Below the pieces are notes generated by a model, which was given only the letters and a program-made list of their open reading frames with translations, was not told the origin of the DNA and did not search any database. Below are positions 17,116 through 63,560 of a stretch of DNA of 64,000 nt, piece after piece. Position 1 is the first letter of the stretch; every line of letters begins with the position of its first letter. A program made the position numbers and the translations under genes. The stretch covers positions 107,356,305 to 107,420,304 of the forward strand of contig OZ026518.1 in assembly GCA_964019695.1 (NCBI GenBank), read 5' to 3'. The stretch is from Loripinus fragilis (Eukaryota > Mollusca > Bivalvia > Lucinida > Lucinidae).

Positions 17116-17318
17116 ACATCTAATGACAGGAGTATCAAATGAAAAAGGTTACATTTATTAAGGAAAATAAAACAGAAAAAATGGTCTCAAACACTTAACC
17201 CTTCGTCCAGCATGGCAGGATCATTTATCTTCCATTTTATAATAAATTTGTTTTGAGGAATCTGCTTATGTCAAGGGTTACCGTATGTTATATAGCTCAT
17301 TGTATCGTATCTATCACA
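17116..17318 (-). pseudogene. 3' end of the Tx1/L1-like LINE, separated from its body
   Basis: Read on the minus strand, the first bases after the 8.6 kb insertion continue the LINE frame. The duplicated TGTGATA gives the end of K-D-V-I, followed by GATACGATACAATGA, that is D-T-I-Q-stop. The remainder is non-coding LINE 3' flank up to the MITE at 17115. The LINE body lies at 25964-30388, on the other side of the inserted element. Confidence 0.75.
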
Positions 17319-17338
17319 AGTAGTAATGGGGGCCACTC

Positions 17339-17402
17339 TGGCACAAATTTTTTTTAAGCCTGAAAAGAACTTAGAATTTTTCAGGCTAAAAAATTTGTGC
17401 CA
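17339..17402. repeat. Subterminal hairpin of the left inverted repeat
   Basis: TGGCACAAATTTTTTTTAAG and AGGCTAAAAAATTTGTGCCA pair, extended by AGCCTGAAAA/TTTTTCAGGCT. Outward, GGGGGCCACTC pairs imperfectly with GATGACTCCCC. The same structure lies at 25881-25944 in the right repeat, about 20 bp from each tip. It could act in end recognition or replication priming; that role is inference. Confidence 0.75.
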
Positions 17403-17440
17403 TAGATGACTCCCCTGGTAGGCTTGAGTGACTAGCTGTG

Positions 17441-18195
17441 AATAACTTAGTTTATTTTTGAGGTCTATTCTGGTTGGGCCTATAATTGTGATAGTTTCCT
17501 GGGCTATTTGAAAATAACTTAGTTTATTTTTTGAGTTCTATTCTGGCTGGGCCTATAATTGTGATAGTTTCCTGGGCTATTTGAAAATAACTTAGTTTAT
17601 TTTTGGGATTATTCTGGCTGGGCCTATAATTGTGATAGTTTCCTGGGCTATTTGAAAATAACTTAGTTTATTTTTTGAGTTCTATTCTGGCTGGGCCTAT
17701 AATTGTGATAGTTTCCTGGGCTATTTGAAAATAACTTAGTTTATTTTTGAGTTCTATTCTGGTTGGGTCTATAATTGTGATAGTTTCCTGGGCTATTTGA
17801 AAATAACTTAGTTTATTTTTGGGATTATTCTGGCTGGGCCTATAATTGTGATAGTTTCCTGGGCTATTTGAAAATAACTTAGTTTATTTTTTGAGTTCTA
17901 TTCTGGCTGGGCCTATAATTGTGATAGTTTCCTGGGCTATTTGAAAATAACTTAGCTTATTTTTGAGTTCTATTCTGGCTGGGCCTATGATTATAATAGT
18001 TGCTTGGGCTATTGAGAAATAACTTAGTTTATTTTTGGGATTATTCTGGCTGGGCCTATGATTTTGATAGTTTCTTGGGCTATTGAGAAATAACTTAGTT
18101 TATTTTTGAGGTCTATTCTGGTTGGGCCTATAATTATAATAGTTTCCTGGGCTAATGGGAAATAACTTAGTTTATTTTGGGGGATTATTCTGGTT
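17441..18195. repeat. 72-bp tandem array in the left inverted repeat (11 copies)
   Basis: Each unit contains AATAACTTAGTTTATTTTTG, then GAGTTCTATTCTGG or GGATTATTCTGG, then GGGCCTATAATTGTGATAGT, then TTCCTGGGCTATT. AATAACTTAG occurs at 17441, 17513, 17585, 17657, 17730, 17802, 17873, 17945, 18018, ~18089 and 18161. Open frames through the array are by-products of its period. Confidence 0.95.
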
Positions 18196-18209
18196 GGGTA
18201 TCCATATCG

Positions 18210-18530
18210 TTTGAGATGTGGATGCAATGTGGACCTTCACATGTAAAATGTGGATGCAATGTGGATCCTCCACATTTTGAATGTTGATGTAATGTGGAGC
18301 AATGTGGATGTATTGTGGAGCAATGTGGATTTCCACATTTCAAATATGAATAAATGCAGATATATTGTGGGTCAGAATAATGGAGATTTACGTTCATTTT
18401 TGGATAAATACGAATTATATGTGTACCGCCACACTTAAAATGTGGATCCACCACATCTCCACATCTTGACAATGTGGATCCACCACATCTCCACATCTCC
18501 ACAATGTGGAGTTTCCACACCTACACATTT
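18210..18530. repeat. TGTGGA / TCCACA motif cluster, left
   Basis: About 25 occurrences of ATGTGGA, TGTGGATCC and the complement TCCACAT are packed into ~320 bp, many as back-to-back palindromes such as TGTGGATCCACCACA. The mirror copy is at 24190-24415 plus 24894-25010. The density and palindromic arrangement suggest a binding array for an element-encoded protein, but this is not shown by the sequence. Confidence 0.7.
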
Positions 18531-18901
18531 GACAAATTGACTTGTACCCTCTCTCCAATCAATCCCTGGTAGGCTTGAGCATTGAGCTGTGAATAACTTT
18601 TTGGGCCATTCCTGCTGGTGTATGATTGTGATAATTTCCAGCATTGAAAATAACTTAGTCAAATTTAGCTTTGAAAATAACTTAGTCATTTTAGGAGGTA
18701 TAGTATGTGGTGATATATGGTGTGTGTAATAGTCAAGGCTACTTAGTTCTATGCGTCTTAAGAGTCTCTTGGTCAATTAAGACCTCAACTCATAGAGGCA
18801 TCACTCTGTAGCGTTAACTAGTGTATAGCTAGTTGTCTCAAGCTTACTACTACTGATTTTTTAATGGAAGAACAACAAAGACTGGTGAACATTTCTATAA
18901 C

Positions 18902-18907
18902 TTTATT
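18902..18907 (-). terminator. Polyadenylation signal AATAAA for the minus cluster
   Basis: AATAAA on the minus strand lies 114 bp past the stop of the zinc-finger gene, inside the left inverted repeat. Its mirror copy at 23815-23820 serves the plus cluster. Confidence 0.55.
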
Positions 18908-19020
18908 GCCCCGCTAACTATAACTGATTACAATGACAGAGGATTAGGGCCGTCCCTCTGTTCATTGTTTACAATAAGAGTAATTAAAGAATATATGCCA
19001 TCATACCAAGTAGAATATAA

Positions 19021-19845
19021 TTAGAATGTTTTAAACATTGATCCAGAGCCTAGTTGACTTTGAGTATATCTTGGTCCAGAGTTGTTCTGTTGCAGCTGAC
19101 TTGGTGCATATTTTAATCCTGAACTCTGTTGTAATGAATCTGATTCATCATCTTCACCTAAGGAATAGGATGGTGGGTCATATTCTTCAAGTTTTCCATC
19201 CAAGAGGTATCTTCGTTTTTTAATAGCATATCTCAAAGCTTCATCCTCATCAAACTCATCGTCATCTCGAAGTCTCTTTGCTGTAGATGTTATCTTCTTG
19301 TGCAAGGGATCTTTCTTCATGGCCTTAGATACTTTAAGAAAGCACTGGTAGCGATCAATGACCTCTGCTCTGTATCTAGGTTCTAGTTTATTAAAAGTGA
19401 CCTCCTCTGCTTCATCTGTGTCCATGTCTGGATGTTTCTCTACTGTATGTTGTACACCTTCATTGAAAGTGGCTTGTAGGTATCTATGAGCTCCACCAAC
19501 AAAAGTTTTCCATGGATCAAACTTGCTCTTTTTTCTAGAATAATGTTGGTCTTCATCATCTTCATCAGTATAGTCTGTATCACTTTCGTCATGAATACCA
19601 TAATCTTTGTCTGTATATTTCCCAAAGATATCTTCCTTTTGATGACTTCTAGAAGTCCCTGCATCCGATTCTTCAGACATAGTAGAGTCTTCATTTTCTG
19701 ACATTGTTTCTGACTCCATATCTTCACTGCAGATACCACTTGTCAGATGTCGTCTTAAACTGTCTGATCTTGCAAACTGTCGTTCACACTTTGGACACTG
19801 ATGTTGACCCATTGAAATCGTTTTGGTAAATGAATAGCTTCTCAT
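19021..19845 (-). CDS. C2HC zinc-finger acidic protein of the mobile element
   Basis: An intact 274-codon single-exon frame. Residues 17-39 form one zinc finger, C17-x2-C20-x12-H33-x5-C39, with the linker QFARSDSLRRHL typical of C2H2-type DNA-binding fingers; the last ligand is Cys. Residues 41-100 are strongly acidic and Ser-rich. A central segment begins FDPWKTFVGGAHRY (about 109), the middle is rich in charged residues (KRLRDDDEFDEDE), and the tail is Gln/Ser-rich. The ATG at 19845 is followed by an alternative start at Met12, immediately before the finger. It is last in the minus cluster, 78 bp after the 146-aa gene. A likely role is DNA binding at the element ends or transcription control, by inference. 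Similar finger-plus-acidic proteins accompany FYLTL-type proteins in invertebrate virus-like elements, from memory. No nuclease or transposase motif is seen. Confidence 0.75.
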   Translation of the reverse strand: MRSYSFTKTISMGQHQCPKCERQFARSDSLRRHLTSGICSEDMESETMSENEDSTMSEESDAGTSRSHQKEDIFGKYTDKDYGIHDESDTDYTDEDDEDQHYSRKKSKFDPWKTFVGGAHRYLQATFNEGVQHTVEKHPDMDTDEAEEVTFNKLEPRYRAEVIDRYQCFLKVSKAMKKDPLHKKITSTAKRLRDDDEFDEDEALRYAIKKRRYLLDGKLEEYDPPSYSLGEDDESDSLQQSSGLKYAPSQLQQNNSGPRYTQSQLGSGSMFKTF

Positions 19846-19923
19846 TGATTGTGTCCTTTTATACTTGAAGTAACATACAAACCCACAGTTTTGTCAATAT
19901 TTCTCACAAAAATATGACATTTT

Positions 19924-20364
19924 CTACTCTTTTTTATTTGCATGTATCTCTTTTGCTGCAACACTTGAAAGAGGACTGCATTTTCTTGTTTTGCTGCTCT
20001 CTTTTGCAGAAGAAAAATTCTTTCTTTTATCACATCTTTGCTCCATTATATTTCTTCCCTTCATATATTTCTTCTCTAATGGCCTTCTTTCTAGTTGGTT
20101 TCCTAACAGCTTACGAAGTTCTCTATGGCACATTCTACAGTACTTTGGTGGTCTTCCTTCCTTGAGTTTACTATCCAACGCTGTACTCAGTCTTTTCATC
20201 AGATATCGAATTTGTCCATAGCTCATATGATATTTAGTTGATCTTTTAGATGCAGGTGTTTTCATATCATCATTGCAGTTTGTATTTTTCTGTCTTGCTG
20301 AGAGATCCATTCTTCTTCTTGTAGTGTTCGAAGAACAATAAGAAGTGTCAACCAGAACCATCAT
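19924..20364 (-). CDS. Unrecognised small basic protein of the mobile element
   Basis: A 146-codon frame counted from the first ATG (MMVLVDTS). The frame is open for nine codons upstream, back to a TTG next to the previous gene's stop, but no ATG lies there. The protein is basic and Cys-containing, with a central GRPPKYCRMCHRELRKLLG segment that might bind metal through the CxxCH pair. Before it, YGQIRYLMKRLSTALDSKL looks helical. No known domain is recognised. It starts 24 bp after the 299-aa gene ends and is followed by the zinc-finger gene on the same strand, so the three may be co-expressed. A second frame (GTG at 20033 to 19842) overlaps its end; I do not call it. Confidence 0.6.
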   Translation of the reverse strand: MMVLVDTSYCSSNTTRRRMDLSARQKNTNCNDDMKTPASKRSTKYHMSYGQIRYLMKRLSTALDSKLKEGRPPKYCRMCHRELRKLLGNQLERRPLEKKYMKGRNIMEQRCDKRKNFSSAKESSKTRKCSPLSSVAAKEIHANKKE

Positions 20365-20387
20365 ATTTATACTGATAACAAAATTGA

Positions 20388-21287
20388 TCAACTTTTTAAA
20401 CGTTTGAAATGTAACTTTACTAAAGTTTTCCCACCAACAAAAGGGACAGACCTGCCAATTTCATCTTTGATATCAATATGAACCTGATCAATATAAGATT
20501 TTGCCAAAGGTACATAATGCAAGTTCACAAATTCTTGATGCGATTGAGTGCTAGGTTTTGACTGTTTATAAGAAACAATTCTAAGTAAAGGAGCCGTTAT
20601 ATTTCCAACGTAAGTGTAATCTGCAACATCAGAATAAACAAACATCTGATGGTGAGTCATGTTCAAATCAACAGCATATGTAAAAACCTGATTATCACTC
20701 CCAATCAGTTTATTTGAAAGATCAGGATTCAATCCAAGTATTTCTCCAAGAGACTTTGAAAATCTAATTTGGACTCTTTTTGGATTTTCAACATGTAAGT
20801 TTACACGGTTACCTGATTTCTTGTAACTTAATGTGATCATACTGTGGATTTGACGTAGAATAGCTCCACATTTTTCTTCAATTGCAATCTGAATTTGCTC
20901 TACTAAGTGCTGAGGCGAATTATAGTTTCCTGCTGGGATAAACAATTTTATTTCAGGACAACTTCCATCTTTCATGCATACAGTATTCATTTTACTTTTC
21001 CCCAGTCTTTCCAAAACATTCTCATCGTAGAAGTGAACATAAAAATAATTGCTGTTATGTGAAATGTTATATACTTCCGAAGGAGTCATAATTTCTACCA
21101 ACGCTACAACCCATTGTTCTTTCTGGACTTGAATAGGATGATTTAGCTTTGTGGTAAATGAGAACTGTTTATTTTTAGGGAAAATATCCATAGAACTATC
21201 ACTCAGTAAGCTCAGATAAAATTCATCCATGATCTCATATGTGAAACAGCCACTACAGTTGATAGAAATATAATGACAATTAGACAT
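20388..21287 (-). CDS. FYLSL-type protein, possible virion protein
   Basis: An intact 299-codon frame. A better start may be Met20, because from there it reads MDEFYLSLLSDSS, the usual opening of a protein family I recall from large virus-like elements of molluscs, cnidarians and echinoderms (F-Y-L-x-L-x-S-x-S). Further family landmarks are QWVVALVEIMTPSEVYNI (about 79-96), IPAGNYNSPQHLVEQI, VQIRFSKSLGEILGL, MFVYSDVADYTYVGN, PLLRIVSY and the ending GRSVPFVGGKTLVKLHF. The mostly beta-prone pattern and constant C-terminus would fit a jelly-roll virion component, but that assignment is inference and rests on memory of the family. It is first in the minus cluster, with a TATATATATATA stretch at about 21299-21312 just upstream. 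Confidence 0.75.
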   Translation of the reverse strand: MSNCHYISINCSGCFTYEIMDEFYLSLLSDSSMDIFPKNKQFSFTTKLNHPIQVQKEQWVVALVEIMTPSEVYNISHNSNYFYVHFYDENVLERLGKSKMNTVCMKDGSCPEIKLFIPAGNYNSPQHLVEQIQIAIEEKCGAILRQIHSMITLSYKKSGNRVNLHVENPKRVQIRFSKSLGEILGLNPDLSNKLIGSDNQVFTYAVDLNMTHHQMFVYSDVADYTYVGNITAPLLRIVSYKQSKPSTQSHQEFVNLHYVPLAKSYIDQVHIDIKDEIGRSVPFVGGKTLVKLHFKRLKS

Positions 21288-22462
21288 CGCTTAACTTCAT
21301 ATATATATATATTGGCTACTCTTGTATTAATCATATGAAGATAAAATATATAGCATCTGTGGGAAAAAGCCCAGATTTTCTGAAATCAACAGTTGAAAAT
21401 TCTCAAAATTGTTTCATCAAGCGTAATCACTATTTGATTTTTTTATCCGATCGAATATTTTCTATAAGCCAAACTAATGAAATTTTCACCATGTGGTAGG
21501 CAAAATCACTAGTTCTCAAATTATTTTGATATGCAAATTTGATTTTTTCATCCGATCAAATATTTTCTATAAGCCAAACTACTGAAAGTTTCACAATGCG
21601 ACAATAGAAATCACTAGCAAAAAAAATTGACAAGCAAAACTATATGAATTTTTTCACTAAGTGTCAGGCGAGACTATATGTTTTTTGCTAGGCCTAAAGT
21701 GCAGGCGAGACTACATTTTTTGAAAAATTAGCAAGAAGTATCAGGCACTGTTTAAACAGCACCATTACTCCCCCAGTACTATCCTAACCTCGGAATCCCT
21801 GGCGATTGAAACTGTCTCAAATACAAGTCAAATTCCTGCATGTCTCTATGGACCAGAGAATTTGAGGCGGAGCCACTCCAACCCAAAGGCTGGCGCCCTT
21901 AAACAGCCAAAGCTGCTCTACCTTTTTAAATGCATATTCAACAGTTTCTGAAGCACAAAGCTTCTCTACGGGCCTCGGCGGATGTATAGAGTACCAGTGG
22001 TCAGTTATTTTTGTTCACACTATATCTCTACTGACTTAATAAGCAAATATTTGCAATTCATATATATAGTTATCCTATCACAGAATAAGTTTGAAATGGT
22101 GTCTCAATGTTACTCTATCCCATAATAGTTTTCAAGCCTTATAGTATGTAAAATCGATAACTTGAATATAAGAGCTATCTTATGGTAAAAATTTGAAGTA
22201 AATCGGATAAAAAATACCCGAGATATTACAATTTCGCATATTTTTTACCGTGAAATTTTTTATTCAGGGGAAATAATTTATTGGCATGAAAAAGCAAGAA
22301 CCGGATTTCTAAAAAGTAAAAATTCATATTTTCGCAATAACTTGAGTTTGCCTAGACCGATTTTCAAAATTTTTTCACCTTATAAAAGCTTAGAACAATT
22401 GCCATCTTATCACATTAAAACTAATTCATCTGCAGGTAACACATAAAGAAAGCAAATCAGTT
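21288..22462. promoter_or_regulatory. Central bidirectional regulatory region of the mobile element
   Basis: This 1.2 kb separates the divergent clusters. Next to the minus cluster it has a TATATATATA tract (21299-21312). Two imperfect copies of a ~47 bp block (GATTTTTTTATCCGATCGAA then TATTTTCTATAAGCCAAACT) start at 21436 and 21541. Two AGGCGAGACTA.AT blocks lie at about 21667 and 21702. A GC-richer segment at 21770-21980 (GAGGCGGAGCCACTCC) stands out from the AT-rich surroundings and could be a core promoter. Promoter or origin function is inferred from layout. Confidence 0.5.
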
Positions 22463-23140
22463 ATGGCATATCAACTACCGATAGAAATACAACATATGAT
22501 ATGGACTTATTCGATGTACAATTCAGCTAAAGGGTTAGGATTCAGGAAGCAAATTCAAGAAGGATGGTTTAAACTTAGGTTGAGACGCTTGTCAAATGCT
22601 TTAGAGACTAAATCTCAGGACATCTATCACCAAGAACTAGGCCAACTACTTCTAAGCATTGACGAATTACTATATCTTCCTGGCGAGATGCGCTTAAGAT
22701 TTCATACCGAGATGCTCAAGATACATTACTCCAAATTTCACAGTATTGATAAAGCTCGTGTTTGGGTTGTAAGAATGAAGAATTTGACAGTGGATAAACT
22801 TTACTCTATTTGTACTCGTGACACAGATATCAAGTATTTTTTGAATGGAATCATCTATGACAGTAATAAGTTTTATGGATGCTTGTACTTAAAGGAAGAA
22901 ACTCCTAAGCATCAGGTCCAATGGTTAATGTCTGCATGGAATACTCAAGATGTATCTTTATCTGTGGCATCTTTAACAGTTGCGGGGATTAATCACTTTA
23001 TAACCAGTGAACTGATTAGGTATATAAACAGACCAGATTCATATAACGTTGCCATTGGACATTATACTCCAAGACAGATAGAACCACAAATTATTTTGAA
23101 GTTTCCAAGTCGTGAGTCTGATTATCTGCTGAATAACTGA
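22463..23140 (+). CDS. Unrecognised 225-aa protein of the mobile element
   Basis: An intact frame from ATG (MAYQLPIEIQHMIWTYSM) to TGA. The first 15 residues, LPIEIQHMIW, recall the first helix of an F-box or a similar short docking helix, but the rest matches no family I know. Residues 20-110 are rich in Leu, Arg and Glu and look helical. Later segments (YGCLYLKEETPKHQVQWLMS, SYNVAIGHYTPRQIEPQIIL) look mixed alpha/beta. No Cys/His metal site or catalytic triad stands out. It is the first plus-strand gene after the central region, with two bases separating its stop from the next start. Confidence 0.7.
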   Translation: MAYQLPIEIQHMIWTYSMYNSAKGLGFRKQIQEGWFKLRLRRLSNALETKSQDIYHQELGQLLLSIDELLYLPGEMRLRFHTEMLKIHYSKFHSIDKARVWVVRMKNLTVDKLYSICTRDTDIKYFLNGIIYDSNKFYGCLYLKEETPKHQVQWLMSAWNTQDVSLSVASLTVAGINHFITSELIRYINRPDSYNVAIGHYTPRQIEPQIILKFPSRESDYLLNN

Positions 23141-23142
23141 AT

Positions 23143-23529
23143 ATGTATACGATCACCAAAAGTCTACCCGTGTGCTTAGATCAAATTTTACATTTTGATG
23201 TCTACAAAATAACTTTAGAACACATCTTATCATTAGAACCATCCAGTGCCGAGTTTTTGAAAACGAGAGCAGGAATCAAGAACTGGTTAAACCGATTTGA
23301 GACATTTGATACATTCAGATTTTGGACTAAACGTAATGCTCGAGAGATGTTGAGAATCATTGATGACACTCCTGTCACCTATATGGATTGGTTAACTTAT
23401 GTGGCAAACAGCGAAAGTGTGATTTCTCACATCGAAGCAGTATTGAAAGAAATTCAACAACCCTCAGAAGAAGAAGATATGGATTATGAAGATCTCATTT
23501 CAAACATAGATAGCTTGATCACGATATAA
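23143..23529 (+). CDS. Unrecognised 128-aa protein of the mobile element
   Basis: An intact frame starting two bases after the 225-aa gene stops (TGA-AT-ATG), a spacing compatible with reinitiation on one mRNA. The N-terminal half is mixed hydrophobic (VYKITLEHILSLEPSSAEFL), the middle basic and aromatic (RFWTKRNAREMLRII), and the tail acidic (PSEEEDMDYEDL). The protein is probably soluble, with no membrane segment. The function is unknown. The close coupling suggests it works with the 225-aa protein. Confidence 0.7.
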   Translation: MYTITKSLPVCLDQILHFDVYKITLEHILSLEPSSAEFLKTRAGIKNWLNRFETFDTFRFWTKRNAREMLRIIDDTPVTYMDWLTYVANSESVISHIEAVLKEIQQPSEEEDMDYEDLISNIDSLITI

Positions 23530-23575
23530 AAAGAATGATCAAGTCATTTTGCTCATCATATCTGAGTTCAACATC

Positions 23576-23683
23576 ATGGAAGAAGCAAGAGAGAAGAAAT
23601 ATTTGGAAATTCCACTAGATCCTGTACAGAGATGGTTGCAGAGAACTCAGATAAAATTGATCCCTAGTGATGAATACAAGTGA
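23576..23683 (+). CDS. Candidate 35-aa microprotein of the plus cluster
   Basis: ATG opens a 35-codon frame beginning MEEAREKKYLEIPLDPVQRW and ending SDEYK-stop, 46 bp after the 128-aa gene on the same strand. The composition is coding-like: charged, one amphipathic helix (VQRWLQRTQIKLI), no low complexity. It is the last frame before the inverted repeat. A polyadenylation signal at 23729-23734 and another at 23815-23820 follow. It is short enough to be chance, though its position makes it worth noting. Confidence 0.4.
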   Translation: MEEAREKKYLEIPLDPVQRWLQRTQIKLIPSDEYK

Positions 23684-23814
23684 TCTTAGTGACTCAGTAG
23701 ACATATTCATTAAATATTTTAGACACATAATAAATCTAGGAGTTCTATTGTAAACAATGAACAGAGGGACGGCCCTAATCCTCTGTCATTGTAATCAGTT
23801 ATAGTTAGCGGGGC

Positions 23815-23820
23815 AATAAA
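23815..23820 (+). terminator. Polyadenylation signal AATAAA for the plus cluster
   Basis: It lies 132 bp past the end of the 35-aa frame, inside the right inverted repeat. It mirrors the signal at 18902-18907, so each inverted repeat supplies a 3' end to the cluster facing it. Confidence 0.55.
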
Positions 23821-24411
23821 GTTATAGAAATGTTCACCAGTCTTTGTTGTTCTTCCATTAAAAAATCAGTAGTAGTAAGCTTGAGACAACTAGCTATACA
23901 CTAGTTAACGCTACAGAGTGATGCCTCTATGAGTTGAGGTCTTAATTGACCAAGAGACTCTTAAGACGCATAGAACTAAGTAGCCTCGACTATTACACAC
24001 ACCATATATCACCACATACTATACCTCCTAAAATGACTAAGTTATTTTCAAAGCTAAATTTGACTAAGTTATTTTCAATGCTGGAAATTATCACAATCAT
24101 ACACCAGCAGGAATGGCCCAAAAAGTTATTCACAGCTCAATGCTCAAGCCTACCAGGGATTGATTGGAGAGAGGGTACAAGTCAATTTGTCAAATGTGTA
24201 GGTGTGGAAACTCCACATTGTGGAGATGTGGAGATGTGGTGGATCCACATTGTCAAGATGTGGAGATGTGGTGGATCCACATTTTAAGTGTGGCGGTACA
24301 CATATAATTCGTATTTATCCAAAAATGAACGTAAATCTCCATTATTCTGACCCACAATATATCTGCATTTATTCACATTTGAAATGTGGAAATCCACATT
24401 GCTCCACAATA

Positions 24412-24891
24412 CAGTCAAAACTCTTTATAACGTCACTCGTTATAACAGAATATTTAATATCCGACATAAAATTGCTGGGAACGGATCTGTTTCCATTAAA
24501 AATTCCCTCTTTATAACAGAAAATTCACATAACGACACCAACAGTAATTTTTGGGAACAGATATACAATTTCTATTGAAAGTAAATTCATTATAACAGAA
24601 TTGTTAACATGTGTCAGACAATTTTGTGATCAGAACAAGGTCTCTTTGCATGAACAGGTTTCTGTCTCACTTGATAATTGGTAAGCTTTGTGCATTTTGA
24701 TGCAATATGAAATTAAACTGATGAAAACATTTGGAATAATAGCATTTTAAATCATTTGTACAATATTTTCTTTTACCAAATGATTATTATGTTGAAATCT
24801 GGTAATGGTCAGAATTCTTTATAACAGCAAATTCACTATAACGTCAAGGATAGCTTGGAACAAACAGTGTCGTTATAAAGAGGGTTGACTG
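24412..24891. mobile_element. 480-bp pogo/Tc1-mariner-type MITE inside the right inverted repeat
   Basis: The tips CAGTCAAAACTCTTTATAACG and CGTTATAAAGAGGGTTGACTG are inverted, and TA is duplicated at 24410-24411 and 24892-24893. Internal CTTTATAACAG/CTATAACG repeats reinforce the ends. No coding frame is present. The left inverted repeat has the uninterrupted site (GATGTATTGTGGAG near 18308-18321), so the MITE landed after the 8.6 kb element had formed. Confidence 0.9.
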
Positions 24892-25034
24892 TACATCCAC
24901 ATTGCTCCACATTACATCCACATTCAAAATGTGGAGATGTGGTGGATCCACATTGCATCCACATTTTACATGTGAAGGTCCACATTGCATCCACATCTCA
25001 AACGATATGGATACCCAACCAGAATAATCCCCCA

Positions 25035-25855
25035 AAATAAACTAAGTTATTTCCCATTAGCCCAGGAAACTATTATAATTATAGGCCCAACCAGAATAGA
25101 CCTCAAAAATAAACTAAGTTATTTCTCAATAGCCCAAGAAACTATCAAAATCATAGGCCCAGCCAGAATAATCCCAAAAATAAACTAAGTTATTTCTCAA
25201 TAGCCCAAGCAACTATTATAATCATAGGCCCAGCCAGAATAGAACTCAAAAATAAGCTAAGTTATTTTCAAATAGCCCAGGAAACTATCACAATTATAGG
25301 CCCAGCCAGAATAATCCCAAAAATAAACTAAGTTATTTTCAAATAGCCCAGAAAACTATCACAATTATAGACCCAACCAGAATAGAACTCAAAAATAAAC
25401 TAAGTTATTTTCAAATAGCCCAGGAAACTATCACAAGTATAGGCCCAGCCAGAATAGAACTCAAAAAATAAACTAAGTTATTTTCAAATAGCCCAGGAAA
25501 CTATCACAATTATAGGCCCAGCCAGAATAATCCCAAAAATAAACTAAGTTATTTTCAAATAGCCCAGGAAACTATCACAATTATAGGCCCAGCCAGAATA
25601 GAACTCAAAAAATAAACTAAGTTATTTTCAAATAGCCCAGGAAACTATCACAATTATAGGCCCAGCCAGAATAATCCCAAAAATAAACTAAGTTATTTTC
25701 AAATAGCCCAGCAAACTATCACAATTATAGGCCCAGCCAGAATAGAACTCAAAAAATAAACTAAGTTATTTTCAAATAGCCCAGGAAACTATCACAATTA
25801 TAGGCCCAACCAGAATAGACCTCAAAAATAAACTAAGTTATTCACAGCTAGTCAC
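25035..25855. repeat. 72-bp tandem array in the right inverted repeat (12 copies)
   Basis: This is the complement of the left array. AAACTAAGTTATT recurs every ~70-73 bp from about 25040 to 25830. Two alternating forms (AATAATCCCAAAAATAAAC and AATAGAACTCAAAAAATAAAC) appear in the same alternating order as on the left. Confidence 0.95.
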
Positions 25856-25963
25856 TCAAGCCTACCAGGGGAGTCATCTATGGCACAAATTTTTTAGCCT
25901 GAAAAATTCTAAGTTCTTTTCAGGCTTAAAAAAAATTTGTGCCAGAGTGGCCCCCATTACTAC

Positions 25964-28255
25964 TATCACATCTTTATATTTGGTCCATGCATTTTCAAAT
26001 TTATCTAAATTGCCATTTCTTGTTGGTGTGTGTTGTATCAGCTTATAGAAATATTTTACCTTATTTTGCAGTGCTACTACAGATAGGGGGTGGTCAAGGC
26101 GTTTTGTTGCGTATATATAGTACTTGACAATAATAAAAATATGTAAGTCTGCTGATGAGTATGTATTCCCTATGCTAAATATAAACAATTCTTCAACAAA
26201 TGTCAGATTAACATTGTTATTAAGGAGCCATCTTTTGAAGTCTTTAAGGAGATTTTTAGTTTCTTGGCATTCCCAGAGCATATGTTTTATTGTTTCTTCC
26301 TCTTGACAAAAGTTACATCTTGGGCTAGGTACATATTTCATGATATATAGATATTTTTAGTTGGTAGAATTCGGTGGTTTATTCTTGTTTGGAACCATTG
26401 CATTTTTGTTCCTAAAGATAGTTTGAAAGGAAAAGAATAGATTGCTTTCCATGTTTCATCTTCCATATTGTAAACACTATTCCATTTATGCTGGGAAGTT
26501 GGTTTATCTGTATTCTTGTTTAGAATCATATAAAAGTCTCTCCCTCCCATCTTTGATTTTATAAGAAGGAGTATATTTGCAGGCAACAATGGTGCATGTA
26601 GTTTTTTTTAGAAAAGCTTGTTATTTTATGGGTTCCTGCATACGCCATTATTGCTTGGTTTAGTCCTAGAAATTGGACAAAATTTGTTTTTATGTTGTAA
26701 ATAAAACGTTCAAATTCTTCTTGCAAAAGAAATGCACCTGTTTCATGTATCAGATCATTAATGTTCCTAACTCCTTTCTGGCCCCATTCTTTTGTGTATA
26801 TTGGTTTGTTGCTGATTGTTATCTTATTGTTATGGAAAATTGTACTTGAGAGAATAAAGTCTTCGGTATCTTCGTCAATAAGTTGGAGTATTTCTGAGTA
26901 TGCACTTATTACATCATACCAAAATCTATTATTTATCTTTTTTAGTAGAATCAGTGTAACATTTTCCAAATACTAGTAACTCCTTAAAGATTATTGTAGT
27001 GCTTATGACAGATTGCCAAAGACTATTGGATATAATGAATCTTCTTAACCAAATTAATTTCATACTTTTTATAAATGCTTTGAGATTTATCATTTTAAGA
27101 CCACCTCCACAAGACTGTTTTATAACATTTTGTTCAATTTTGGCAGGGCCATCCCACAAAAATTAAAAAAAATATATTATTTAACTCCTTAATTGTTTGT
27201 TCATTTGGTATTGAAATAAATAAATGATTTAACATAGGGAGTAGAAGTGTTTTTATAACTGTTATCTTACCTAATGGGGTAAGATATCGTCTGTTCCAGA
27301 GTTTAAACAAAGATCTGATGTTTTGTACTTTTTCTTTGAAGTTTATCTGTTGCATTTTGTCTAAGTCAATATGAAAATTTTTCCATAGAATAGTAAGTGA
27401 GTTTGATCAGGAAATACCACAATCACAAACCGCAGACAACCCAGTGGCACCGCGAGGAAGAGCCGCTCAACCATCACGAGACACCAGGAAGACAAATTAA
27501 GCAAAGCAATCAGCTCTCACTTCCCCATCAGGATGATTGCAATACTAGAATGGACATAAAGTAACGTACAACAAAACATAGAACAACCACAGACCCCCAC
27601 AATGGGAGAAACAATAAACAAAAAGTCAACAACAACAGAACCACCGCCTTAGAACAGACAGCAGCCTAAGCCACCGGGGGGCTTAAATGCATTTTACTGG
27701 TACCAAATCTTCGCCCTAGATTCTGCTGTTGTTGAAGTACAAGAAATGTTCAGCTCGCATGGAGGCCATCTAACTAATGCAATGTATCATCATGGAAAAC
27801 ACTCCAATCAAATTACTACACCATGATGAAACAAAGAAAAGGGCTCATGACTCACAGATAGTCAGAGCTAAAGAAAACCTCAAGTTGAGCCACGGTTTAA
27901 AGTCAGTTTTACCCCATGATAGCTTCCAACTTGTTTTGATGGATGCAGTACTATATTTCTTAATCCCTATCCATACAGAGGTTTTTCAAAATTAACTTTC
28001 AGACCTGAAAAATGTGAATAATCATACAATACATCGAGTGTTGCATTTAAAGATTTGCTTGTTCCACCTAAAAGAAATAATGTGTCATCAGCGTATTGAG
28101 ATAATCTATGTTCCTTGTCATTTATAATTATGCCACTTATGTTTATGTAATTTCTGATCATTATGCCTAGAATCTCAGCACAGAGAGTAAATAGAAAAGT
28201 TGACACTGGATCGCCCTTGCCACAGCCACGACCAATATTGAAAAAAAGATGACAA
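25964..28255 (-). pseudogene. Tx1/L1-like LINE ORF2, RT thumb and C-terminal part (broken)
   Basis: On the minus strand the frame resumes after a frameshift near 28220 with a core RT segment containing YADDT (28081-28094), followed by SHFSGLKVNFEK. It is cut by a foreign repeat at about 27389-27985, then resumes (FHIDLDKMQQINFKEK, LNHLFISIP). It ends with the zinc-knuckle-like CNFCQEEETIKHMLWEC region typical of LINE C-termini (zf-RVT). Several frameshifts near 26560, 26950 and 27150 make it inactive. The 8.6 kb mobile element interrupts it eight residues before its stop. The IGENT, QYADDT and SGLKVN motifs fit the L1/Tx1 group. Confidence 0.8.
27389..27985 (-). mobile_element. Dispersed repeat A inserted in the LINE
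   Basis: It starts ATAGTAAGTGAGTTTGATCAGG, continues ACAACAACAGAACCACCGCC and AAATGCATTTTACTGGTACC, and runs into AGCTCGCATGGAGGCC and beyond. Copies are at 34384-34725, 48145-48560 and 51896-52368, with fragments at 29335-29425 and 30897-31058. It separates two parts of the LINE RT domain, so it arrived later. Its tail structure resembles the 3' region of a Penelope-like element, but this is uncertain. Confidence 0.7.
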
Positions 28256-29290
28256 GTTGCCGCATTGGTTCACACTTAGCTTTACATTTTTGTTAGATGT
28301 TTTTATCCAAGAGATGATAGAGTTACCAAAGCCAAAAAATTCCATAACTTTATGTATAAATGGCCAAGACACAGAGTCAAAAGCGTTTTCAAAATCTACA
28401 TAAAGCAGTAATCCTGGTATATTGTTTTCCTCAGTGTATTGCATAATGTCGTAGATTAATATAGTGTTTTCTCCTATATATCTTCCCACAATGAATCCTG
28501 TTTGATCACTGTGTATCAGTTTATGTAGAGTACTCTTAATTCTGGCTGCAATGACTCCAGAAGCTATTTTATATACACAATTGAGTAAGGATATTGGTCT
28601 AAAATTTTTAACAAAGTGGCGAGGCTTGTTATCTTTTGGTATGCATGTAATTATTCCTTCCCTTTGAGTTATTGATAGTTCCCCCTTTGAAAAAACATAA
28701 TTAATAGAACGCACTACAAAATGACCAATCTTTTTCCAAAATATTTTAAAAAATTCAGCAGTGAAACCATCTGATCCTGGGCTCCGATTATTTGACATGG
28801 CTTTGAGAATTAATGAAGCTTCACGATACGTTATTCGACCTTCTAATGAATCTGATTCGTCTTTATTTAATCTTTTAATATCATTGTTTCTAAATAATCC
28901 AAACAAACCAATATCTATAAGTTGGCTGTCTTTGCTAGCGTAGAGGTCTTCATAGAATCTCTTTGTTTCATTTAAAATGTCGAACTGGTCAGTTATTATT
29001 TTCCCATCATTTGTTTCTAATTTTGATACAATTTTACTTGTGTAGTTGTACTTTTCAAGGTTAAAGAAGAAGTTAGTTGATTTTTCATCGTCTTCAATAA
29101 TTTTGGCTCTTGCTCTTACCAGGACTCCTTCCATTTTATTTTTTCTTATTCTGTATAGTTCTTCTTTTAGATTCTCAATTTCATTGAGGTTTGTATCTGT
29201 CAACTTACCTTCTAGAGATTCTATATTGCTGATTAATTCTTTTTCTTTTTTATCTGCTGCTTTTTCTTGTAACTTGAGAATGAAATAGAT
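28256..29290 (-). pseudogene. LINE ORF2 reverse transcriptase, fingers and palm
   Basis: A 342-codon open stretch on the minus strand. After a charged linker, it has the RT landmarks SNNRSPGSDGFTAEFFKIF, FRPISLLNCVYKI, DQTGFIVGRYIGENT and LLYVDFENAFDSVSW. The catalytic Asp of motif A is present (YVDFENAF). A frameshift near 28220 separates it from the YADD motif. From memory, the GRYIGEN and FENAFDSVSW signatures are those of L1/Tx1-type LINEs. In these elements this enzyme copies the RNA by target-primed reverse transcription. Confidence 0.85.
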
Positions 29291-29334
29291 TTTCCTCTTA
29301 ACTCCATCAAAAGTGTTCCTAGAAGAAGTTGGTC

Positions 29335-29425
29335 GTTAATTACAAACTGAATTTGCGGTGCCACAGGGTTGTCTGCAGTTTGTGATTGTGGTATTTCCTG
29401 ATCATGCTCAATTACTATTTTTGGT
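29335..29425 (+). repeat. Fragment of repeat A between LINE endonuclease and RT
   Basis: GTCTGCAGTTTGTGATTGTG followed by GTATTTCCTGATCATGCTCA matches the end of repeat A seen at 31010-31050 and 52315-52360, in the opposite orientation to the insertion at 27389. It interrupts the LINE reading frame. Confidence 0.65.
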
Positions 29426-30297
29426 CGTCAGGTATGTTATTTATTTGGTCTATATTATAAACGGGTAATGCATATTGTTTCTTGACTTCATCAATTTTAT
29501 CACTCATTGTTTCCAAATAATCTTTGTCAGTTAAAAGAAAATTATTGTGCTTCCAAAGGGGTTTTCCTTTTTTAAACTGGACAAAAGCTATGTCAAGAAT
29601 AATCATAGAGTGATCAGATCTATAGCTTCCTTCAATTGTGGTCTTATTGACTGAGGGGAGTAGATCTTGTGAAACAAGGAAATAATCAAGTCGAGCTTGC
29701 TTGATGGGAGACCTTTTTCGCCATGTATATCTTCTTAATGATGGGTTGGCATCTCTGAACGGATCAATCAAACAGTTATTTTCCTTAATTTGTAGGATTT
29801 TCTCATGTGATTTTTTATTATTAATAGTTTTGTAGTTAAAGTAATCTAACTTTTCATTTTGAACTACGTTGAAATCGCCACATATGATTAAGCTGCATTT
29901 CCTATTTTATCAGCTACATTAATAATGTTGTCAAAGAAAGTAGGGTTGTCTTTATTAGGGTCATATAAGTTTATTAGGGTAAATCTGTTCTCCTCAACTG
30001 TTAAGTCACTGATTATGTAATAACCCCCTGGGTCAGATATGTGCTCATTTATAGTATAAGCTAAGTTTTTCCTAAACAGAATTGATACTCCTCTAGAGTT
30101 AGATGTGCCTGAACTAAATAGGCACTCATTGTTCCATTGGAATCTAAACAAGCGTTCAGATGATTTGGTAGTGTGTGTATCTTGGAGGCAATATATGTCA
30201 CATTTTCTGTCCTTTAAGTAATTTAGAACATCTAATCTTTTTTCCATAGAACCTAAACCCTGACAATTTACAGAAAGTATTTTCTTTAACATATTAT
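29426..30297 (-). pseudogene. LINE ORF2 APE-type endonuclease domain (one break)
   Basis: Starting near 30297 (MLKKILSVNCQGLGSMEKRL), the frame shows the endonuclease landmarks VNCQG, DIYCLQDTH (catalytic acidic residue region), RGVSILF, then CGDFNVV near 29860-29885, RLDYFLVS and YRSDHSMIIL. The SDH triad is present. A stop or frameshift near 29888, just before GDFN, breaks the domain. The enzyme nicks target DNA to prime reverse transcription. The presumed ORF2 start has no ORF1 upstream in this window. Confidence 0.85.
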
Positions 30298-30659
30298 GTC
30301 TACACAAAGGGGCTGCCATGCTGTGAGTGTTGGGAGACCTGTCGAGGCAATCAAAAGGAACAAATAAGAAAGTTTTGAACTTTCTCAAAACATGATCAAA
30401 TAAAGATCAGCTAACAAGTTTTGTACAAATGTGCTGTAGATTTTTGTTTTCTTGTAATCTAAGATTTTCAAAATGCTTTGTTAATAGTGAGTCATTGCTA
30501 TACAAATATGTTTCGCTGCACAATATCAAAATCGCTAACAGAGTTGCCCAGATCTACCAAGTCCATTTACAGACTGTAGGGAACAGTCCACCCCAAGCAG
30601 AAATGGTCTGCTATAATGAGAAGGTCTGGATGTCATTCCATCTTCATTTGACGACATTT

Positions 30660-61833: not shown

Positions 61834-62950
61834 ATAGAGATACATGTCATTCTTCAATCACTGGCGACCTATCTTGGAAACTATTATTGAAACCAAAAGC
61901 AGTTGTAGTTTTCAGGCTAGTATTGCTTGCAATCAGTACACAGAAATGAACAGTTTGTATTTTCTGAAGCAGTAAGAGACTTCCAACTACTAAACATCAC
62001 ACTATTATTATTCGGAAATGACATACTGAATAATGCAACAAAGACAACACTATGAGCAGTGCATGCGTTTATCAGGAATACTAAACGTTTTGATAATGCA
62101 TGAGCATGTATATTTCCGTTTAAGTTGGTCTGTTTAAAATTATCTATCTCAACAAGGGGAGCATTCTGCTATTCTTTCGACCTTCATTAAGTGATACTTG
62201 GTCTTGAAACCCTTGAGCATCCTGCAATACTTTTGACCTGCATTTAGCGATAATTGGTCTTGAAAACCAATTTTCCGTCTTTTTGAGAGTGGCCGTTTTT
62301 CACAGATTTTATAGTACTCACTTGTGTTTTCTTCTTTCTGAAAAAGAAAAGCTCAATGGTCTCGCGATTAGAACCTTACTACCCTTATTGCGCTCGGGTT
62401 GTAACATGAACCACATATATTATTGTATTGGGCCTTAAAAGTGAATTATCCTAGCATTGTACAGCACTTTTGTGTTTTACACGACGTACATATAATAAGA
62501 CACGCTTTCTCCTGTAAACAGAAAAAGCAGCAGCGAAAATCAATGATTGCAATAAGGAGTCTGTATCTAAAATAGTTTATTGTTGCAAGTAAAAGGATTG
62601 TTTTGGCGAAGCCATAAAACAGTCTCTGAATTTCAGAATATGTAATATTTTATTACAAAGCGGATAGAATTATTTTTGCTGATCGTTCTTTTGAATTTCT
62701 GCTGATTTCAGATAATGTGCCTTGTACAGTGTGCTTTCGAGTCCTTATTTGAATAGTAAATCAAAAGTGGTTAAACTTTATGATGGCTTCTTTAAATACT
62801 GTCGCATTTTGAGAAAAGCAACACTTCGATATTTTGGATCGTTTTTGTTGTGATGCATCGTTGATGACATGCATGCACTACTACAGACCTTGATCTTTTC
62901 TGTCTCCTAACCCATTCATCCGTATGTTTGTTAGCTTTTCGTTTCGTTTC
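61834..62950. other. Unassigned AT-rich DNA
   Basis: A small duplication (ACTTGGTCTTGAAACCCTTG and AATTGGTCTTGAAAACCAA at 62195-62280) is visible. No gene or element end is recognised. Confidence 0.4.
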
Positions 62951-62952
62951 GC

Positions 62953-63560
62953 GATGTCAACAAGGGTTCTCAAAGCCTTGCCTGGTAAACTTGATATCGA
63001 AAGACACTCACCTAGTATTCTCCATATCTTGGCAAGCCTCGCGATGTCAACAAGCGTTCTCAAAGCCTTGCCTGTTAAACATGATAATAACAGACACGCA
63101 CCTTGTGTTCTGCCTCGCGATGTCAACAAGGGTTCTCAAAGCCTTGCCTGGTAAGCTTGGTATCAAAAGACAGTCACCTAGTACTCTCTATATCTCGGCA
63201 AGCCTCAAGATGTCAACAAGCGTTCTCAAAGCCTTGCCTGGTAAACTCATTATCAAAAGACACTCACCTAGTATTCCCTATATTTCGACAAGCCTCACAA
63301 TGTTAACAAGCGTTCTCAAAGCCTTGCCTGGTAAATTTGATATCAAAAGACACTCACCTAGTATTCTCTTTATCTTGGCAAGCCCTGCGATGTCAACAAG
63401 CGTTCTCGGAGCCTTACCTGGCTAGTTTGATATCAAAAGACACTCACCTAGTAATCTCTATATCTTGGCAAGCCTCGCAATTTCAACAAGCGTTCTCAGA
63501 GCCTTACCTGGTAAACTTGATGTCAAAAGACACTTACCTAGTAAGATATATAGCTCCTGC
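62953..63560. repeat. 90-bp tandem repeat, 7 copies
   Basis: GATGTCAACAAGCGTTCTCA, AAGCCTTGCCTGGTAAACTT and GATATCAAAAGACACTCACC mark each unit; starts at 62953, 63043, 63119, 63209, 63299, 63389 and 63479. The third copy is 14 bp short. Since 90 is a multiple of three, a 165-codon frame stays open through it. I treat that as a by-product. Confidence 0.92.

Follow-up and report, generated by a model that had tools for sequence, protein, structure and literature searches.

Virophages such as mavirus, which depend on giant viruses, have genes of their own for a major capsid protein and for replication, and P4-like phage satellites are also known to redirect capsid assembly. According to PMC8097293, vertebrate Mavericks have 6-bp target-site duplications and the end motif (AGT)2//(ACT)2. 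Polintons are suspected of making virions, but for Mavericks the same paper states that no particles have been observed. In adintoviruses, 'Ziftr' zinc-finger regulator genes are present in some genomes, and both loss and duplication of the penton occur (PMC11071296). No satellite of an animal Polinton was recognised in the titles and opening lines of abstracts returned by searches of open-licence papers for satellite and non-autonomous Polintons.

The element described here comes from Loripinus fragilis (GCA_964019695.1, contig OZ026518.1, 107,356,305-107,420,304, forward strand). All coordinates refer to this whole stretch of 64,000 nt, which we call the window. The boundaries of the element were placed at 17319 and 25964, giving a size of 8.6 kb, and its features are as follows.

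17313..17318, no strand: left copy of the target-site duplication, ATCACA, 6 bp
17319..18976, forward strand: left terminal inverted repeat, 1658 bp, with the tip AGTAGTAATGG
18978..21361, reverse strand: replacement cassette (zinc finger, 146-aa protein, penton), sitting where the 18-kb relative has its PolB-to-protease operon
19021..19845, reverse strand: C2H2 zinc-finger protein, 274 aa, with an acidic middle (zf-C2H2 E 1.4e-4, under the Pfam curated cut-off)
19924..20364, reverse strand: basic protein, 146 aa, pI 10.2, with a Cys motif
20388..21230, reverse strand: penton (capsid vertex), 280 aa from the probable start Met20, the ORF being open to 21287
21362..22437, no strand: central divergent intergenic region, common to 18-kb Polintons, in which it immediately precedes PolB
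22463..23140, forward strand: 225-aa protein, an optional right-arm gene that full-length Polintons have too
23143..23529, forward strand: acidic protein, 128 aa
23576..23683, forward strand: scar, in which the start of the 106-aa right-arm gene runs directly into the end of a full-length relative's zinc-knuckle gene, with about 0.9 kb missing
23746..25964, reverse strand: right terminal inverted repeat, about 2.2 kb including an extra insert
25965..25970, no strand: right copy of the target-site duplication, ATCACA

The matching tips noticed in the sequence-only reading, an earlier inspection of the same DNA, were found at both ends, and AGTAGTAATGG agrees with Polinton inverted repeats, which end in 5'-(AG)n or (AGT)2; the 6-bp duplication is a Polinton feature as well. 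The same reading had seen a flanking direct repeat of 7-8 bp. The repeat exists, but its true length is 6 bp; it appeared longer because CT, the last two letters of the element, also stands ahead of ATCACA on the left. The inverted repeats, described as near-identical and about 1.7 kb long, are indeed long and near-identical, but their lengths are those listed above, the right one being longer because the right arm contains an additional stretch of about 0.5 kb (24414-24936). The left one holds a 72-bp tandem array (17441-18198). All 15 elements that were read at both ends, 11 small and 4 large, had identical 11-bp tips and perfect 6-bp duplications, and in young copies the two inverted repeats were 99.5-99.9% identical (L016, L018, L057/L058).

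Larger relatives sharing the termini, which it had been suggested to look for, were found as complete 18-kb Polintons of this genome on C11, C13, C16 and C6. One of them gave matches to PolB (E 5.5e-45), to an rve integrase with a chromodomain and to an A32-type ATPase, and a weak match, below the cut-off, to a C5 protease. The outer part of the left inverted repeat of the window element was 83-91% identical to the ends of three 18-kb Polintons, and the central spacer was 93-94% identical to that of three large elements over 1.09 kb. A TATAAAAG box 83 bp ahead of the right-arm gene occurs in the large element too. With Polinton ends, 6-bp duplications and same-ended larger relatives that carry PolB and integrase, the element gives no support to the new class that had been considered.

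The core of divergent single-exon ORFs is as it had been described, with a length of 4.77 kb, and our searches of the element agreed that it has no recognisable replication or integration enzyme. Neither PolB nor rve integrase was matched in the window element or in 8 small copies, both being found in large elements, and the large element's 430-aa putative major capsid, ATPase and protease genes had no match in the window element. When the 15 proteins of a complete relative were compared with the element, matches at E 0.01 were limited to the penton and to 20 residues of a single right-arm protein. The five window proteins gave no replication or major-capsid match in Pfam or PHROGs; the PHROGs matches were weak (E 0.1-0.2) and to families of unknown function. 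PDB matches obtained by sequence were chance-like.

No ORF of the element is longer than that of the penton (299 aa). Translation probably starts at Met20, because most homologues begin there, the model has low confidence before it and a TAG is present at residue 18 in 3 of 26 copies. Structure prediction, which had been recommended, was run on the penton; the single jelly-roll penton fold, again a Polinton feature, was confirmed, and with it the virion-type gene that had been proposed. A profile search of the PDB returned one penton (E 0.037), and the penton alignment found no relatives in the viral contigs and genome contigs collections. The window penton is 43-46% identical to that of the relatives and forms a separate clade in the tree. 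The database homologues in the tree were 240 aa or longer, and the nearest row among them outside this clade is 66% identical; shorter partial matches, some of higher identity, were left out. All 4 complete large elements examined have the other penton (43-45% identity to the window's), as do the partial large elements L036 and L043.

Retention of the penton from this large family was thus rejected at such identities, as was loss of the enzymes by simple deletion. The penton belongs to another lineage, and therefore the cassette replaced the operon and is not a survivor of a deletion. The sequence-only reading had envisaged a miniature derivative that keeps a virion gene and a DNA-binding protein; the element is intact, enzyme-less and Polinton-related and has a virion gene and a gene for a probable DNA-binding protein, but 'keeps' is not supported for a penton of another lineage.

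Small-type pentons were scored, at 94% or more, for the best 131 of 1234 candidates, 90 without and 41 with an in-frame stop, and some of these stops precede Met20 (3 of the 26 copies examined closely). In 26 copies, broken ones included, the shared changes were 12 nonsynonymous to 37 synonymous (omega 0.12, p 1e-12; the binomial p values here and below assume independent changes, which related copies violate). For comparison, omega was 0.22 for the large elements' PolB and 0.26 for their putative capsid protein. That an enzyme-less element has a penton under purifying selection points indirectly to a role of capsid vertices in spread within this genome.

The boundaries of the cassette are the points where identity to the large elements ends: towards the inverted repeat this is after about 41 bp of query, and towards the spacer it is before column 76. 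Nine of the 13 small-type loci had the junction with the repeat, the retrieved sequence of the other 4 ending short of it, and 11 had the junction with the spacer, the penton being lost in the other 2. The complete three-gene cassette was present in 13/13 copies drawn from the scored penton list. Sequence upstream of the cassette was unlike the window's in 10 of 13 sampled copies; the one of these that was followed further still belongs to the same family of small elements, and its spacer is truncated. A unique deletion derivative of enzyme-bearing relatives, against which the earlier interpretation was to be judged, is half right: the relatives examined have the standard enzymes, but the copy is not unique. 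Conservation of the ORFs between copies holds, with detectable purifying selection on the penton, the zinc finger and the 225-aa protein. Fifteen stretches beside single inverted-repeat matches were also inspected; 5 had small-type genes (L023, L025, L026, L032, L033), 7 had large-type genes (L024, L027, L030, L034-L037), and L028, L029 and L031 matched none of the tested proteins.

The six genes claimed earlier came down to five: zinc finger, 146 aa, penton, 225 aa and 128 aa, of which the 146-aa gene is the least supported. As candidates for a sixth, ORFs of 96-113 aa within the inverted repeats were short tandem repeats translated, and an 83-aa antisense ORF showed no significant constraint (omega 0.78, p 0.39, 3 copies). 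The zinc-finger protein, with 98 homologues at E 0.001 and an omega of 0.55 on shared changes, is probably DNA-binding; its alignment found no relatives in the viral contig collection. The 146-aa gene is under little or no constraint (omega 0.63-0.98). The 146-aa and 128-aa proteins were compared against Pfam, PHROGs and pieces of this genome. A single comparison of the 128-aa protein with the large element's 106-aa right-arm protein (32% identity, 94 residues, E 3e-4) makes it a possible paralogue; the 128-aa gene showed no significant constraint.

The 225-aa gene had an omega of 0.39 (p 3e-4, 6 small-element copies) and a predicted structure with a pLDDT of 51; its protein had no relatives in the viral contig collection, and its family no profile similarity to the 128-aa and 106-aa proteins. 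The idea that the 225-aa and 128-aa genes mark small elements was rejected from the location of the scored 225-aa loci (n=150): 61 have a scored integrase or large-type penton at a distance of 6-13 kb, 7 are next to a scored small-type penton and the remainder are unassigned; a scored 225-aa locus lies within 4 kb of 7/131 scored small-type pentons. The scar in the right arm was recognised from window 23500-23615 and 23615-23900, which match L038 at 104-219 and 1127-1413.

It seems fairly probable that the element is a non-autonomous, satellite-like Polinton, a reading supported by the common ends and spacer, the recurrent cassette junctions and the constrained divergent penton over many copies. 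The ends and control region are shared with the presumed helper at the sequence level, and these stretches would act in cis. The PolB of an active complete Polinton would replicate the small element from the common ends, its integrase would insert it, and packaging would fall to its major capsid protein and ATPase. The small element's penton might take the five-fold vertices of some particles and favour packaging, release or entry of those holding the small genome; the zinc-finger and basic proteins would probably bind element DNA or the control region. More tentatively, and with rather more doubt than belief, we suggest that in eukaryotes the element may be what capsid-redirecting satellites are among phages: a satellite of an animal Polinton virus, using a complete Polinton's polymerase, integrase and shell and biasing packaging or entry with a vertex protein of its own.

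Against the satellite-like reading, selection on the penton could have acted in a full-length master yet to be found, some small copies drop the cassette, the sequence upstream of the cassette differs from the window's in most sampled copies, and constraint is slight or absent in the 146-aa gene and not significant in the 128-aa gene. The element could then be a passenger mobilised in trans, its cassette selected in an unseen full-length master and regained by recombination with no gain for the small element, which we regard as unlikely. The copies are mosaic, the penton being 96-99.7% identical (one 55-aa broken piece 91%) and the zinc-finger and 146-aa proteins about 85-99%, which is consistent with recombination. 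Of the first 9 small elements for which both ends were read, 2 are penton-less: L016 had no penton match and L022 retains just a 56-aa zinc-finger piece, and therefore insertion may not require the cassette. A master could also be missed in a list of the best 131 of 1234 candidates. The large elements with the other penton, complete and partial, nevertheless speak against it, as does the 66% identity of the nearest long homologue beyond the clade. A scored integrase match was found within 25 kb of only 1/131 scored small-type pentons and within 2.5 kb of 64/141 scored large-type pentons, although this and other genome-search absences are weak because only the best candidates were scored.

Quite improbable is control of the helper for the host's benefit, where an expressed penton, with or without the zinc finger, would interfere with complete Polintons and copies would persist by protecting the host, by analogy with endogenous virophages. 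A penton unlike the helper's could poison its vertices, and the penton and 225-aa gene are conserved, but the very high copy number and the young copies with near-identical inverted repeats resemble selfish spread. Plain decay of a Polinton deletion derivative drifting without function is the least probable, since the clean 0.9-kb scar and the stops in 41/131 scored penton loci, some ahead of Met20, are set against a penton differing from the relative's, junctions recurring over many copies and the constraint on shared changes.

The satellite-like reading predicts mixed particles, and abundant large and small elements with common ends in one genome make it directly testable. If true, satellite parasitism with capsid hijacking extends to animal DNA viruses.

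Compared with the Polintons/Mavericks of the same genome, the window element has the same (AGT)2 tips, 6-bp duplications, inverted repeats with the 72-bp array, divergent spacer, a penton and right-arm genes, but it is without PolB, integrase, ATPase, protease and the 430-aa putative capsid gene, and its penton is of another lineage. It shares the penton fold with adintoviruses, for which a penton-bearing genome without polymerase and hexon is not described in the available part of PMC11071296. Unlike in virophages, major capsid and replication genes were not found. MITE-like non-autonomous DNA transposons also have ends in common with an autonomous element, and movement would be in trans in both cases, whereas the window element has several genes under purifying selection, including one for a virion protein. 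SaPI/PICI phage satellites (PMC12409344) are about half the size of the helper genome (here 8.6 versus 18 kb) and contribute a capsid gene of their own; use of helper particles would be a further parallel. They are bacterial and have another capsid fold, whereas the contribution of the window element is a vertex jelly-roll.

The window element ends in matching tips and lies in LINE-like sequence.

Features of the window element and its insertion site (window coordinates)
17319-25964, window element; both tips AGTAGTAATGG, ATCACA flanking each side
25971-30388, minus strand, interrupted LINE-like retroelement, split by the window element
28175-29203, minus strand, reverse transcriptase of this retroelement (PF00078, E 7.9e-15)
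29888-30388, minus strand, endonuclease of this retroelement (weak match)

The flanking repeat described in the sequence-only reading is present, but its length of 7-8 bp has to be corrected to a duplication of 6 bp, the other two bases matching by coincidence. All 15 elements read at both ends share one 11-bp tip and are flanked by perfect duplications of 6 bp. When the flanks were joined without the window element, the retroelement frame stayed open up to a nearby stop; no uninterrupted independent copy of the interrupted sequence was found among the genome stretches fetched. Elsewhere in the window, an ORF at 60441-61358 matches a Pao-type retrotransposon peptidase (PF05380, E 4.6e-5), and tandem arrays occupy 1288-2430 (31-bp unit, about 36 copies) and 62949-63543 (90/180-bp unit).

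The inverted-repeat arms contain 100% paired stretches of 668, 431 and 377 nt, and a global alignment across their 72-bp arrays gave 15 mismatches in 1656 paired bases. Because long parts of the two arms are identical, this copy looks young; its penton has a 100% identical match at three other loci of the genome. The arms are unequal: the number of 72-bp units differs and the right arm is about 0.5 kb longer. The extra DNA (24410-24936), absent from the left inverted repeat, has 28-nt imperfect terminal inverted repeats (24410-24437 and 24866-24893, 89%) and looks like a small nested MITE-type insertion.

Paired inverted-repeat matches in the 1.99-Gb assembly holding the window revealed eight small elements of about 5-9 kb besides the window's, and three of about 18 kb. 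The latter are the larger relatives, with shared termini plus polymerase or integrase, that the sequence-only reading had suggested looking for, and all three encode both enzymes. Their genes were compared in all three and Pfam was run on one; they comprise PolB (PF03175, E 5.5e-45), an rve integrase with a chromodomain, a poxvirus A32-type ATPase, a penton and one protein with a sub-threshold adenovirus-protease match. A 430-aa protein without a Pfam match in the element searched is taken, by position and length, to be the putative major capsid protein. In a fourth complete Polinton (C6:61300297-61324062; loci L034 and L038-L041), with the duplication CACGTC, PolB is interrupted by about 6.8 kb of foreign DNA. 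The right arm of this Polinton is enlarged, with 225-, 128-, 119- and 212-aa genes, the 225-aa and 128-aa genes being additional to the usual right-arm set, which suggests that new genes are acquired in the right arm.

When 15 large-element proteins were compared with the window element and eight small copies, the only matches were the penton and a 20-residue stretch in the 106-aa protein; PolB, integrase, ATPase, protease and the 430-aa protein had no match in any of the nine. For the window element, the sequence-only reading had likewise seen no replication or integration enzyme. The penton is also the sole one of five window proteins with a match in the three 18-kb elements. At the DNA level, the outer ends of the window element share 83-91% identity with the ends of those elements. 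Identity rises to 93-94% between its central 1.09 kb, taken as the control region, and the spacer that lies directly upstream of PolB in the large elements; the shared stretch includes a TATAAAAG box ahead of the right-arm genes. The spacer of other small copies is 85-95% identical to that of one large element. On the left, identity ends some 75 bp short of the penton ORF and returns in the inverted repeat, whose start in the large element lies 17 bases after the protease gene; thus, a 2.4-kb cassette replaces the whole polymerase-to-protease operon. On the right, the window matches the C6 element as far as roughly codon 14 of its 106-119-aa gene, and the match resumes at the end of the zinc-knuckle gene; the window has thus lost about 0.9 kb in between, which leaves a fusion ORF of 35 codons. 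In three other small copies (L017-L019) the 225/128-aa pair is missing and the spacer runs directly into the right repeat; L016 has no penton, and in L022 only a piece of the zinc-finger gene is left.

The ORFs are conserved between copies, as the sequence-only reading implied, with constraint in three of them (all selection p values treat the changes as independent, which makes them too small by an unquantified factor). For near-full-length ORFs alone, omega was about 0.23 for the penton (8 copies; 19 nonsynonymous and 33 synonymous changes, p 1.3e-7), 0.46 for the 225-aa gene (6 copies, one in a large element; p 0.002) and 0.61 for the zinc finger (7 copies, p 0.004); the 128-aa gene gave 0.59 (4 copies, not significant) and the 146-aa gene 0.98 (8 copies). 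Pairwise values from fewer copies showed the same trend (penton 0.13, 225 aa 0.32, zinc finger 0.52, 128 aa 0.64, 146 aa 0.84). In 26 penton copies including broken ones, with the 19 residues before Met20 left out, omega was 0.34 for all changes (p 2e-10) and 0.12 for changes common to at least two copies (12 nonsynonymous to 37 synonymous, p 1e-12); the remaining unshared changes are less constrained, in line with expectation after insertion. Shared changes in the same 26-27 copies put omega at 0.55 in the zinc finger (p 0.002) and at 0.63 in the 146-aa gene (p 0.055), and because of the weak constraint on the latter the 146-aa ORF is the least certain gene. By the same method, the large elements gave 0.22 for PolB (2 copies), 0.15 for ATPase (4), 0.29 for integrase (3), 0.26 for the 430-aa protein (4) and 0.53 for their penton (4); six further genes ranged from 0.14 to 0.76, some not significantly.

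In a 58-row penton tree, from which homologues below 240 aa were left out, small-element pentons formed one clade with a 66% relative as sister, and large-element pentons grouped elsewhere within the same broad family. Genome searches scored the best 131 of 1234 first-look candidates for small-type pentons (94-100% identity), the best 141 of 1146 for large-type pentons and the best 114 of 3102 for integrases. Within these scored lists, an integrase lay within 2.5 kb of 64 of the 141 large-type pentons and within 25 kb of one of the 131 small-type pentons; two of the latter had a large-type penton within 25 kb. One such pair (L042/L043 on contig C412) reflects a small element that is about 7.1 kb long, has tips and a duplication of its own and lies amid large-Polinton fragments, so both kinds can insert close together; the other pair is about 20 kb apart on contig C155.

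Every tenth row of the penton list, a sample of loci having a penton, showed the penton, the 146-aa gene and the zinc-finger gene in this order in all 13 copies, some of them broken. Upstream of the penton leader, ten of the 13 had sequence unlike the window's; one of these, traced outward, proved to be a small element of 7.4 kb whose repeats are 99.9% identical; its spacer is truncated, and the 225-aa and 128-aa genes are both absent. A protein-database penton cluster of 1286 members, from an unstated number of assemblies, also points to high copy number. Three stretches lying 2.4-6.2 kb inside single inverted-repeat hits (L028, L029 and L031) matched no small- or large-element protein tested; these could be ends of truncated elements or elements that carry different cargo.

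Polinton PolB starts replication at the element ends and the integrase makes a 6-bp target duplication; since the ends are common to both kinds, complete elements could in principle act on the small one. Packaging of the small genome would use the shell of the complete element, and the small element's penton would sit at the vertices. Selection would be weak on a gene that served all copies purely in trans, so the constraint on the penton suggests a benefit mainly to the encoding genome, for example when there are few genomes per cell or if packaging follows vertex assembly. Because L016 and L022, both without a penton, exist as inserted elements, the penton may be dispensable for insertion as such, unless these copies lost it later. 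The strongest competing explanation of the constrained penton would be a full-length master that carries this cassette and lies beyond the best-scoring loci listed; among the relatives searched, no source of the cassette was found.

The most fitting label for the window element is that of a non-autonomous, chimeric Polinton derivative. The element differs from a Polinton in lacking the defining enzymes and would work like a satellite, with a predicted dependence on a helper. The Polinton penton was identified in PMC4028283. No penton-only element appears among the adintoviruses in the part of PMC11071296 available to us, where some are described without a penton or with two, and some with zinc-finger genes. 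The end motif and the 6-bp duplication are the same as those reported for vertebrate Mavericks in PMC8097293.
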